64,000 nucleotides of DNA from Arbacia lixula (Eukaryota > Echinodermata > Echinoidea > Arbacioida > Arbaciidae), in contig OZ022583.1 of NCBI GenBank assembly GCA_963669155.1, forward strand, positions 13,002,559 through 13,066,558. The letters run 5' to 3'. Below the pieces are notes generated by a model that saw nothing but the letters and a program-made list of their open reading frames with translations, did no database searches and had not been told where the DNA came from. Positions 45,201-63,200 of this stretch are shown here, one piece after another. The position numbers and the translations under genes are program-made. The first letter of the stretch is position 1; each line of letters opens with the position of its first letter.

Positions 45201-48200
45201 ATCAAATAGGAAACTAATTCAAAATCTAAGTTACTGAATGAAATAGCATGCAAACTATAAAGCAATTATACTACAATTCTAAATTGCGAGCGTATTGTTA
45301 ATTCATTAATACCGAAGTTTGGAAGTTTAATAACTAAATTGCTTATCAAAATGTTAGCATTCCATTTTATTAAATAAAATTGATAGAAAACATTTCATCC
45401 CCCATAACTAGCTGTGGTAAAAATTGAAAGTGATGCACATTTTCCAAACCTTCAAAACACATGAAAGACAGCTATAAGAGTTTCTACACACAAATTGGTG
45501 CAAGTTTCCTAACCTGCAATATATTTGGCACGATCGGGCCTTTTAAAAATAGGACCCTCATTTAATCAGGCCATGTATGAAGAATTTCCTGTGCGTGCAC
45601 ATTATATTCAATGAATAAATACGATACAACCTTGAATAAATAAGCTACTCATTTTTTTTCTTCTAAGAAAATCTCATTAAATCAATTTTAAATAATCGTT
45701 TTCATGCCAGAGATATTCTGTAAAAGGAAAAACAAATTTATATGTACAGCCCCAGTGTAATCATCCATCACTATGGAGATAGTATCCACATTTTTAAATT
45801 GATGAATCAATTAGCATACTAGACTTAACTCATATATTTTGTATGTTAATTATATCAATTTATATGGTGAGAGAAAAATGTAGAGTGTTTCTGTCAAAAT
45901 ACATAGCTTTTACCCAAAATTTTGCTCTGAGCTTCATTTTTTTCACTTCCACATTTCCAAAGCTTTTCACAAGTTCGCAAATAGTACAATGCATGTAAAA
46001 GGTTTTCTATTTACCAGGCAAGTGATAACCAACAATATATCGTATTTTACTGCTTAAACGTTTGAATTTTTCTTTATAATGTAAATCATACTTTGCAATT
46101 TGCATTTCCTGTTCTTCATTTATCATTTTGCAATTTGAAATGGTTAGCAAAGCCTTGAATAATAACGCATTTCCTCACAAGAAAGGGGTTGACCCGAAAG
46201 TAATTCTGGAAATAAAATGAGATTTAGAATGTGACATGGGTTAGAGGAAATTAGCTGTCCTTCATTATAACAATTAATGTTATACCCAATCAAAGTTCTC
46301 CTGGCAGAAATCCAAACTCTTTTGTCATCACACAAATGAGAAGTAAAATGCTCAGTATGAAATAGAAAAGAACATAAAGAGAGAAAAAAGAAGAGGGATA
46401 CACTGAATATATGGATAGAGAGACAGAGAGAGAGACAGAGAGAGAGAGAGAGAGAGAGAGAGAAAGGGTGAGAGAGAGAGAGAGAGAGAAAGAGAGAGAA
46501 TGAGAGAGAGAGAGAGAGAGAGAGAGAGAAAGGGTGAGAGAGAGAGAGAGAGAGAGAGAGAGAGAGAGAGAGAGAGGACAGAAAGAGGACAGAGAGGGGA
46601 AAATGATAGAAAGAGAGGGTGGAAGGAAGAGAAGGGGAGAGACAAGGAGACAGAGAGAGAGAGTGAGAGGGAGGAGGACAAACAGACATAGGGAGTGACA
46701 GAAAGAGAGAGAAGGGGGAGGGTGAGAGGAAAGGGAGGGAGAGAGAGGAGGGGGAGGGAGAGAGAGAGAGAGAGAGAGAGAGAGAGAGAGAGAGAGAGAG
46801 AGAGAGAGGGGGGGGGGGGAGAAGAAGGAGAGGGGAGAGGGAAAAGGAAATGACAGTGATGCAGTAAAGGAAAGGGAGACAAAGAAAAGAGGAAGAAGGG
46901 GACAAGGAGGGTGGTGGGGGAGGGGTGGTGAGAAAAAAAGAAGGATAGAAATGATAGAGACCAATAAGACTTCAAGGAGAAACACACAACAGTGAGACAG
47001 GAAACAAGCATTGGCATATAAACAGTAATAAAACCCATTCAGAAGTCAGACCAATGTAAGTGCTCCAAGGGGTATGGGGGAGGGGGGTACCCTTAGGGGT
47101 GGGGGTGTACCCTTGGGGGTGTACCCTTGGGGGTGTACCCTCGGGGGGAGGGGATGTACTCACCTCATCTCCCCATCCCTCTGAGGCTCCAGCCAGCTGG
47201 TAGTGCTGCTTGCGGAGCTCCGCCAGGGCCACCCGCTCCTTCTCCAGCTGGCTCTCCAGTTCCAGCACATGGACCTGGGCCTCCATCTCCATCCGCTTGG
47301 TCTGCGTCAAGCTCAGCTTGGAGAAGTCTGGAGACTCTGTGGTCGGATAGACGGAAAGGAAGAACGATTGAATGATTGCATGAGAGATTGAATGAATGAA
47401 TGAATGAATGAATGAATGAATGAATGAATGAATGAATGAATGAATGAACTAAGCGCCATCTCCATGCGCTTGGTCTGCGTCAAGCTCAGCTTGGAGAAGT
47501 CTGGAGACTCTGTGGTCAGATAGACGGAAAGGAAGAACGATTGAATGATTGCATGAGAGATTGAATGAATGAATGAATGAATGAATGAATGAATGAATGA
47601 ATGAATGAATGAATGAATGAACTAAGCGCCATCTCCATGCGCTTGGTCTGTGTTAGACTAAGCTTGGAGAAGTCTGGAGACTCTGTGGTCAGATAGATGG
47701 AAAGGAAGAAAGGAAGAATGATTGAATGATTGCATGAGAGATTGAATGAATGAATGCATGAATGAATGCATGAATGAATGAATGAATGAATGAATGAATG
47801 AATGAATGAGTGAATGAATGAATGAATGAATGAATGAGCTAAGTGCCACCTCCATGCGCTTGGTCTGTGTCAGACTCAGCTTGGAGAAGTCTGGAGACTC
47901 TGTGGTCAGATAGATGGAAAGGAAGAATGATTGAATGACTGCATGAGAGATTGAATGAATGAATGAATGAATGAATGAATGAATGAATAAATGAATGAAT
48001 GAATGAATGAATGAATGAACAAATGAACTAAGCGCCATCTCCATGCGCTTGGTCTGTGTCAGACTCAGCTTGGAGAAGTCTGGAGACTCTGTGGTCAGAT
48101 AGATGGAAAGGAAGAATGATTGAAGGACTGCATGAGAGATTGAATGAATGAATGAATGAATGAATGAATGAATGAATGAATGAATGAACGAATGAACTAA

Positions 48201-60200: not shown

Positions 60201-63200
60201 GCCAGAGCTGCTCAATCATCCAGTCCCTGCAACAATATCAATGTGTGTGAAAGCTATATCTATCTACGTACCATATCCTGTAATGTAGGCAATCATGGAA
60301 TGCCGCTGTTTGTAATAGATCCACAGCACAGTTAACAGCCCCTTCACAAATGACATGCCCCTAAAATATCAACCATCAAATTCTAAGCTTACAAATGGAC
60401 GCAGTAGATGCTTGAGTTAAAAATGGTATCTTTTATTTGCCTACACGATCATATATCCTTTCACAAAGCTGCCAAGAAATGTCCCTATTATGCATTATAG
60501 TCCGGGGTCGTCGAAAGGTGGCTCACCTCTCATCTGGTCCGCTTTGTTGCACGGGTTGCACCTGTGGTTGTACTGGTTGTTGTTGCTGGAACTGGCCGTT
60601 GTGCTCAGGTGGGGGTGACGTCATGAGGTCCACCAGCAATGCACTGTGGGATAGACTCTCCTCCAAGCTCTGGTCCTCAACGGACGCCTCACTCGGCGGC
60701 TGAATTGGAGAGGGAAAAAGAAACGGAACAGAAATAATATATAACCATTCTTCTGTAGCATCGGATTACTGAGTACAGTTACATAAAAATGTACATGTAC
60801 ATAAAAATTGTTTGAAGGGAGTCCAGATATGTGGCTAAATTGGAGAGTGAAAAGAAAAGAAATACAAATAACATATAACCATTCTTCTGTAGCATAGGAT
60901 TACTGAGTACAGTTACCTAAAAATGTACATGTACATAAAAATTGTTCAAGGGAGTCCAAATATGTGGTCATTATGAGGTCTACATTATACAGGTTACTTT
61001 AATGCAGGTTTCACTGAAAGAATTGTTTTAAGGAAACAGCAAATATGGTCTTTAAAGGCAGGTGGTCTTTCTGTACAGGTGGTTTCACTGCACAACCATT
61101 CTTAGGTAGAGCACGATAACAGTAGTGGTACCTATGCACGTGATCATGAAGAAAGAATTGAATCAACATATGCTACATAAGTGATTTGAGAGGGGGAAGG
61201 GGAAGCGTACTGAAAAAGGAATGTGATAGTTTGGGATTCTGTGGAATCACAATCATGTGCACGGACTGATCGAGGATAGATGAAGGAAGAGGGAGATCAC
61301 ATGGTTTGAAGAGACAGAGAGTCCATTTAATCATTAACATTATTATTACCAGCGGTACATCACCCGCTTGGTCCAGCATCGCAGCAGGACTTCATCATTG
61401 ATTATCAACAAATATGAATTATCAATCACAATTCATCAATCATAAGTGATCACTATCATCATTAATGTTATCATTATCATTAGTATCATTATCATTACCA
61501 GTAGTACTATTCTCCTCACTGTTATCGCTACCATTATCATCATCATCATCATTGATATCATCAGCAATGCTATCATTATAATCATAAAGATGATCACTAT
61601 AACGTTATCATCACTATCATTATTACCGGAGGGCTGTCCCTGCCGCCTCCCCCATCGTTGGACTCGTTGTGGCCCAGCATCACAGCAGGACTGATGTAGG
61701 TGTCTTCATTCACGGCTGCCACAAAGAAGTTTGGTGGCTCCTATGTCAGAGGGGGAAAATAACAGAACATTGCCATTGAATACTTTAAAGTACAATTGTG
61801 TTGAAAATTCTAAATATAGTAAATTTTTACATCTACGGAATGCTGGTTATGTAGAGATCACGAAAATATCAATTTCCCAAATTTCCAAAATCCGGTTGCA
61901 GATCATGTTCAACGAATGCCGTCAGCATTGTGACAGCGTTTCGGAGAGTCGATAATGAAGAATTATGACGTAGTAAAATTGTAATTTTTTATGCAGGGTT
62001 AGTCCGCTCTGTTAGATCAGCGTGGTTGGAAAAGTCAATATTTGGGTACCCTATACTATCCTTTTTTCATATGATATCAAAATATAGGCTATTTAAAATC
62101 AATGGTGTTCTACTTTAACTCTCTCAGTCCCATAGGCAATAAATTGTGTTGTTATCGACATGGGACTCTCAATGGTTGGCACTGTGAGGATTAACACTGC
62201 CATTGTTGCATAGAAGGCATTTTATTTGGGATACCGTGCAGACTCCCACATTTGATGACAACATTTTCAATGGTTCATTCAAACGTGGCATGGAGATTAT
62301 TATAACTCATGCATGGTACGTGGCTACTCGAATAGCTGTCTGACATACACAAGGATTAACAATACAAAGTTTTGGGCTGGTTGAAAGAATGGTCATGACT
62401 TTGGAGACCGAACCCCAAACCTTCAGGAACACAATGTTTGGCCCAGTGGTTTTGAGCTGCCTACTCACGGCGAGAAGTGTGGGCCAAGGATTAACAACAT
62501 GTTATTGGGGGATTGAACCCCAAACCTTCAGAAACACAATGTTTGCCCCAGTGGTTTTGAGCTGGCTACTTACGGCAGGGAGGGTGGGCACTTGGATGAG
62601 CCGTCTGAAGTACATGAGGCTGCTGGACCTGGAGTAGAACTCCTTCAGAGCGTGGAACTGCTTCAGGAACCGCGACCTATGACCCTCCAGGGTGTCAGAC
62701 GGCAAGCCTGCAAGGGATGCGTTAAAGGGATACTATGCAGTGAGGCTACCTCCCAGGGCATGAAAATCATTTACAGACCATCAGTGAAAAACAATCATCG
62801 GGAGCTCAGACCCCCTGCGAATATCAAATGTGCCCAGATGAAAGAATACTTTTTTCCTCATTGGGGGGAATGGAAGAGTAAGGGGCCATTGTCATGAAAT
62901 ATCAAGCCTAGCTAGGTGCTCAAAATGCATGCAGCTGGAAGCACATTTAGCAACTTCCTAGGCTCTGAAGTAATGCATTGTGAACATGGGCCCTGGGTGC
63001 TAGTTTCATGATCTCAGTACTGAAAAGTACCCCCTGCAAGTACATTTGTATTGATTTCCACTGCAGGCCATGTACAATAATGGCAAAAGAGGTAGCAAGA
63101 ACAGAAATCCATCAGATATCTGTCCACAAGTGCTAACATATGTTTTGACATTTCAGCTTTAAGATATTTGTTTTATTTTCGTAGACTGATTCATATCTTT

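Follow-up and report, generated by a model that had tools for sequence, protein, structure and literature searches.

Do the DNA duplications that build repeats inside genes favour splice sites? A good natural test is provided by the HIP1 gene in a 64,000-nucleotide stretch of the sea urchin Arbacia lixula (GenBank assembly GCA_963669155.1, contig OZ022583.1, forward-strand positions 13,002,559 to 13,066,558; hereafter the window, with position 1 its first letter), where eight exon-intron junctions, five donors and three acceptors, recur as tandem copies within the adjoining introns. We propose that these arrays are probably minisatellites of the type described from lancelets as mirages, seeded by duplications spanning the junctions and largely neutral, with decoy splice sites that are silent or unproductive. 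On the sections of the lancelet reports drawn on here, this would extend such structures to an echinoid, in a gene whose local duplications fall on junctions and away from intron interiors.

HIP1 is partial in the window, its N-terminal exons lying beyond the window edge. The 17 exons present (E1 to E17) join into a single uninterrupted frame of 755 amino acids with AG...GT borders except at the donor of E10, and encode the last part of the ANTH domain, a segment that matches the solved HIP1 coiled coil, and the I/LWEQ domain. The E10 donor at 54699 is GC (GCAAGT), giving a GC-AG intron. The closest proteins are echinoid (Lytechinus pictus, 83.6% identity; Strongylocentrotus purpuratus, 82.7%; Diadema, 82.5%) and starfish HIP1 stands at 58-59%; the Lytechinus and Strongylocentrotus proteins are 89.9% alike, and the grouping of the window's HIP1 with Diadema has a tree support of 0.56. 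The protein matches thus speak against a lancelet source, which the mirage-like anatomy had brought to mind, and for a sea urchin most likely standing outside the Lytechinus-Strongylocentrotus pair. A tblastn search with the L. pictus protein returned contiguous matches with exon limits agreeing with the 17-exon model, and no decoy-derived insertion was seen in the 17 exons relative to that protein.

The duplicated borders were catalogued by two approaches. An edge scan compared up to 60 exonic bases at each of the 34 exon edges with the adjoining intron (reaching 480 bases upstream of E1 and 1500 bases downstream of E17) against 200 two-base-block shuffles, and gave z>5 at seven edges, namely the E2, E3, E5, E13 and E14 donors and the E5 and E17 acceptors, with z at or below 2.2 at the other 27, the E4 acceptor included. 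Self-BLAST, dust-filtered, with simple repeats masked and local direct repeats defined as <1600 bp, yielded seven local clusters in HIP1, at the E2, E5, E13 and E14 donors and the E4, E5 and E17 acceptors. Seven borders are duplicated together with exon sequence and the E4 acceptor is copied on its intron side only (Table 1). A first-pass annotation made from the sequence alone had listed eight duplicated HIP1 junctions and called for a self-alignment of the gene region; all eight of its coordinates agree with the seven scanned edges and the E4 unit, and the self-alignment, run as the self-BLAST above, places each of the seven clusters at a junction.

Table 1. HIP1 and its duplicated exon-intron junctions in the window. 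Copies include the functional one, as aligned, and count catalogued copies; further degenerate copies exist.
Feature	Position	Strand	Copies	Remarks
HIP1 exons E1-E17	47164..63520	minus		open 755-aa frame, AG/GT borders, ANTH and I/LWEQ domains, echinoid HIP1 matches
E2 donor (62574) and one copy	62400..62589	minus	2	offset 105 bp; 16 exon bases; decoy GTGAGT at 62468
E3 donor, old degenerate copy	61330..61392	minus	2	true exon end 61627; decoy GTAATA at 61349
E4 acceptor duplicate	60698..60967	minus	2	exon start 60699; 133-135 bp unit; decoy TTTAG
E5 acceptor copy	60185..60240	minus	2	first 42 exon bases; true exon start 59179; decoy TTGCAG
Terminal-inverted-repeat element, 556 bp	59210..59765	minus		target-site duplication CATGG; between the two E5-acceptor copies
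E5 donor array	57838..59082	minus	9	true exon end 59014 and 8 catalogued decoys
E13 donor array	51122..51786	minus	4	169-bp unit; 78 exon bases each
E14 donor array	49670..50682	minus	7	two-unit blocks of ~265 bp
E17 acceptor array	47283..48319	minus	6	54 exon bases each; spacing 169-217 bp with (CATT)n

The copies differ widely in how readily they are recognised. That of the E2 donor is 85.9% identical over 85 bp by self-BLAST, and that of the E3 donor is weak: a targeted alignment recovered it, as did the edge scan (z=5.7), and BLAST missed it. The acceptor-only duplication claimed earlier for E4 is confirmed: the unit is intronic, ends at the AG with 2 exon bases, is 90.5% identical over 137 bp, and is detected with exons masked. 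The E5 acceptor copy matches 59193-59138 at 89.3% over 56 bp (edge scan z=19.5) and lies 1047 bp from its partner because a 556-bp element sits between them, the offset falling to 486 bp once that element is removed; the element, at 59765-59210, carries the terminal inverted repeats GGTGGTATTACAGAA. In the E5 donor array the first five decoys follow at intervals of 81-94 bp and the later ones at wider intervals; spacing in the E14 array is 125-146 bp, with 214 bp ahead of the last, degenerate copy. Among the degenerate copies outside the catalogue, the one at 48410-48356 resembles the E17 unit and may be a more ancient duplicate of it. All catalogued copies are partial exons, in keeping with the earlier remark that a full exon is never copied, and each carries the single splice-site type of its border, so that none is a ready exon.

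All seven of the self-BLAST clusters lie at a junction, and six remain plainly detected when exons are masked, so that exon constraint alone does not produce the junction pattern. The E5-acceptor cluster is then seen only through the fragment 60303-60257 / 59861-59815, which resembles 15403-15358 and may thus be a dispersed repeat that does not belong to the E5-acceptor unit. The exon-masked self-BLAST found no separate intron-only local repeat pair in HIP1 at E<=0.01, one at a cut-off of 0.1, and two at cut-offs of 1 and of 10, both involving 48410-48356; in this count everything within seven hand-drawn cluster spans (~5.8 kb in total) was assigned to the respective cluster, including pairs between copies that themselves hold no junction. 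The first-pass annotation had described the copies as always spanning the junction. This holds for the clusters, but the statement is partly built in, since no intronic tandem copy could hold exon sequence without taking in the border; the non-trivial observation is that HIP1 lacks separate intron-only local duplications at E<=0.01.

How unusual this arrangement would be by chance was gauged by placing units of 105, 135, 442, 175, 169, 133 and 173 bp at random under six model variants, with 442 used for the E5-acceptor unit that was later measured as 486. Each unit spans a junction in 18-35% of placements, and the probability that all seven do so is 2.7e-5 to 8.4e-5, or 6.9e-4 to 1.8e-3 for six or more, figures to be read as those of a post hoc test on a gene chosen for its pattern, in which E5 supplies two of the clusters. 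If at least 10 exon bases are required, whereby the E4 case drops, the probability of six or more is 6.9e-4 to 1.1e-3. The clustering on junctions in HIP1 therefore fits a junction bias in the origin or the survival of duplications, bias in origin being the simplest reading of their concentration there over intron interiors. To this extent the data accord with the mutational process targeted to junctions that had been suggested earlier; base composition lends no support to the R-loop cause offered for it. Duplicated junctions are slightly richer in GC than the others on both sides (exon edge 0.60 vs 0.54, p=0.039; intron edge 0.42 vs 0.35, p=0.031) in two of four uncorrected tests on 8 vs 26 junctions, where the arrays themselves occupy the intron edges. 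In the same comparison the two sets of junctions are alike in GC contrast (p=0.87) and in exon GC skew (p=0.76), leaving a GC-step or skew-driven R-loop cause unsupported.

Contrary to the first-pass annotation, which knew of no named class for such structures, lancelet mirages have the same structure in the parts of the two reports drawn on here: they are minisatellite-like tandem duplications of exon-intron borders (PMC3087553, PMC3902484), comprise 5' or 3' borders, and include many copies with AG/GT, in units of 150-160 bp in BflGb6 (PMC3087553). Troponin C (TnC) and PGBD5 are further lancelet genes bearing them (PMC3902484), and reverse transcription PCR (RT-PCR) suggested undisturbed splicing (PMC3087553). 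Mirages are also marked by somatic instability or by lengths that differ between haplotypes; the window represents a single assembled haplotype. The HIP1 copies resemble those described for Adh3, BflGb6/BflGb9, TnC and PGBD5 in spanning a donor or acceptor border, in mostly carrying AG/GT, and in unit sizes that overlap those of BflGb6. They differ in their echinoderm host and in number, with 8 of 34 junctions affected against the one or two junctions per gene described in those parts of the lancelet reports. By anatomy the HIP1 arrays are of the mirage kind; occurrence in amphioxus alone, from which they depart, is a matter of distribution rather than definition. No echinoderm mirage was found among the matches listed in the open-access literature, most subscription journals lying outside that search, and what is new here is the echinoderm host and the eight duplicated junctions in one gene.

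Two other known systems come close. Intron gain by tandem duplication (the Rogers model, with Zhuo 2007 and Gao and Lynch 2009) reportedly proceeds through a duplicated exon segment that creates a new intron; the HIP1 duplications likewise contain splice signals, but here the copy of a pre-existing junction lies in an intron that was already there, and no gained intron is seen. Ordinary intronic minisatellites, or variable number tandem repeats, consist of tandem units subject to concerted turnover, as do the HIP1 arrays, but the latter take in an exon edge and a functional splice site.

Concerted turnover, a feature of mirages, is present in the E14 and E5 donor arrays, where alternate copies are 97-100% identical. 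In E14 the functional copy 1 matches copy 3 at 98% and copy 2 at 88%, and the identity between copies 2 and 4 is 97%. Over the ~48-bp stretch compared in the E5 donor array, gaps ignored, no aligned base differs among copies 1, 3 and 5, nor between copies 2 and 4. Such alternation indicates that duplication acted on two-unit blocks with the functional junction among them, a satellite-type mode of turnover. A simple scheme for the birth and growth of the arrays would begin with a tandem duplication with one breakpoint inside an exon or at its margin and the other in the flanking intron; the exon-attached splice site would stay intact, and a partial exon edge with a spare splice site would be placed inside the intron. 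The array could then lengthen by out-of-register exchange of single units and two-unit blocks, functional copy included. Splicing would continue at the exon-attached copy, the decoys being silent or giving rise only to unproductive transcripts. That copies stop short of an entire exon may reflect the change to the protein that internal or whole-exon copies would bring.

The inferred silence or unproductive use of the decoys rests on the stops that they bring and on what RT-PCR suggested in lancelets. Each of the 26 catalogued decoys would, if used, introduce an in-frame premature stop; the donor decoys of any one exon have their first stop in common, and in E14 the stops precede the decoys. 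Most copies were said earlier to keep their GT or AG, and 25 of the 26 do so, the remaining one being GC. This tally is biased since decoys were catalogued mostly through exact strings containing the splice site, so that degenerate copies are under-counted, and by a rough estimate 25 of 26 is in any case unremarkable; selection for GT/AG retention was accordingly set aside. Ratios of nonsynonymous to synonymous changes (N:S) in the decoy exon pieces are 8:0 in E13, 30:12 in E14 (where a single very degenerate copy contributes heavily) and 0:6 in E17, and the pooled 38:18 fits neutrality (p=0.29 vs 74% N). Stops and pooled ratio together speak against the proposal in the first-pass annotation that HIP1 transcripts could be diversified by decoys. 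E17 stands out among the arrays, and all five of its decoy exon pieces (47509-48257) encode a run of 15 residues identical to that of the true exon, with synonymous differences only along this run.

Several observations weigh against reading the HIP1 arrays as largely neutral mirage-type minisatellites. N:S varies among arrays, with E17 and E13 departing in opposite directions, and divergence among decoys, compared gap-free over short stretches, is lower in the exon part than in the intron part in three of four arrays (E13, 0.068 vs 0.258; E5, 0.129 vs 0.252; E17, 0.050 vs 0.140; reversed in E14, 0.229 vs 0.151), a result not expected under plain neutrality. Both patterns could be accounted for by homogenisation with the constrained true exon, by recent amplification or by selection. 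In E2, true and decoy copies diverge more in the exon part (0.267) than in the intron part (0.083). The alternation of copies is weak in E13 (93 vs 92%), and some decoys appear by eye to match or surpass the true site in strength, as with GTAAGA vs the true GTGAGA in E13 and TTGCAG vs the true TTGTAG at the E5 acceptor. Finally, the host being an echinoid and not a lancelet, the HIP1 arrays and the lancelet mirages need not share a cause.

Some of these points could be taken to mean that the arrays are selected regulatory ladders, in which spare sites tune HIP1 output through unproductive splicing, a premature stop and nonsense-mediated decay. The universal stops, the near-universal GT/AG, the purely synonymous changes of E17 and the lower divergence of exon parts in three of four arrays would all suit such a role. 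Nearly all intronic read-through hits a stop, however, and the donor decoys of one exon have a common first stop, so that 26 of 26 is no evidence for regulation; the GT/AG tally carries its cataloguing bias, the pooled N:S fits neutrality with E13 at 8:0, and homogenisation against a constrained true exon would equally explain E17. We consider regulation by such ladders unlikely. It is also conceivable that introns are being born here, the repeats supplying splice sites for new introns or exons: an intron-gain model is explicit in the lancelet globin paper (PMC3087553), and a predicted PGBD5 exon sits inside mirage-type repeats (PMC3902484), both as given in the parts drawn on here. The 17 HIP1 exons, contiguous with the L. 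pictus protein and free of decoy-derived insertions, make this highly improbable.

Two further explanations concern the setting of the arrays rather than their use. Minisatellites may simply be abundant throughout the genome, with HIP1 nothing special, a view compatible with the arrays being mirage-type and one that bears on the junction bias. The exon-masked search did return local direct repeats outside HIP1, numbering 6 pairs at E<=1e-3 and rising to 16 when the cut-off is relaxed to E<=10, but five of the six are just 64-76% identical, the sixth is a run of 37 identical bases, and no multi-copy array is seen among them; within HIP1, the missing intron-only pairs at E<=0.01 argue in the same direction. 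No second multi-exon gene was recognised by eye in the window's lists of open reading frames (one giving 25 of 151 frames, read without a Pfam scan). General abundance is a serious possibility, if one that we do not favour. An assembly artefact, in which haplotypes or reads were wrongly set in tandem, has in its favour that sea urchins are highly heterozygous and that tandem arrays are hard to assemble. One lancelet mirage was, according to the part of the report consulted, aberrantly assembled in the genome draft (PMC3087553). Such an error would sit poorly with up to nine copies, some ~40% different over the compared stretch and all of partial exons only, with two-unit blocks, with an element lodged between one pair of copies, and with a window free of N; we regard it as very improbable, and copy numbers may be wrong even if the arrays are real.

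Mirage-type duplication at the junctions of HIP1 would carry further if it were found across the genome, where it would indicate a junction-linked mutational process and supply many natural replicates for how splicing ignores nearby decoys and for whether arrays seed new introns. A bolder and rather doubtful proposition is that deuterostome genomes, those of lancelets and sea urchins among them, have in common a mutational process by which tandem duplications arise preferentially at transcribed exon-intron junctions. Splice borders would then be hotspots of duplication, with HIP1 as an extreme readout.

Elsewhere in the window, six foldback-type elements of ~500 bp (15734-16314, 37518-38059, 21402-21902, 34529-35013, 9369-9881 and 11195-11699) are self-complementary over almost their full length, most weakly at 11195-11699, and fall into at least two similarity groups. 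Three weak direct repeats with a spacing of 177-179 bp lie outside HIP1 at 44003-43652, 42727-42449 and 40989-40720; a relationship is apparent between the first two and doubtful for the third. At 1-1965 on the minus strand, a TRIM-like open reading frame with a RING and two B-box zinc-finger stretches runs off the window edge.

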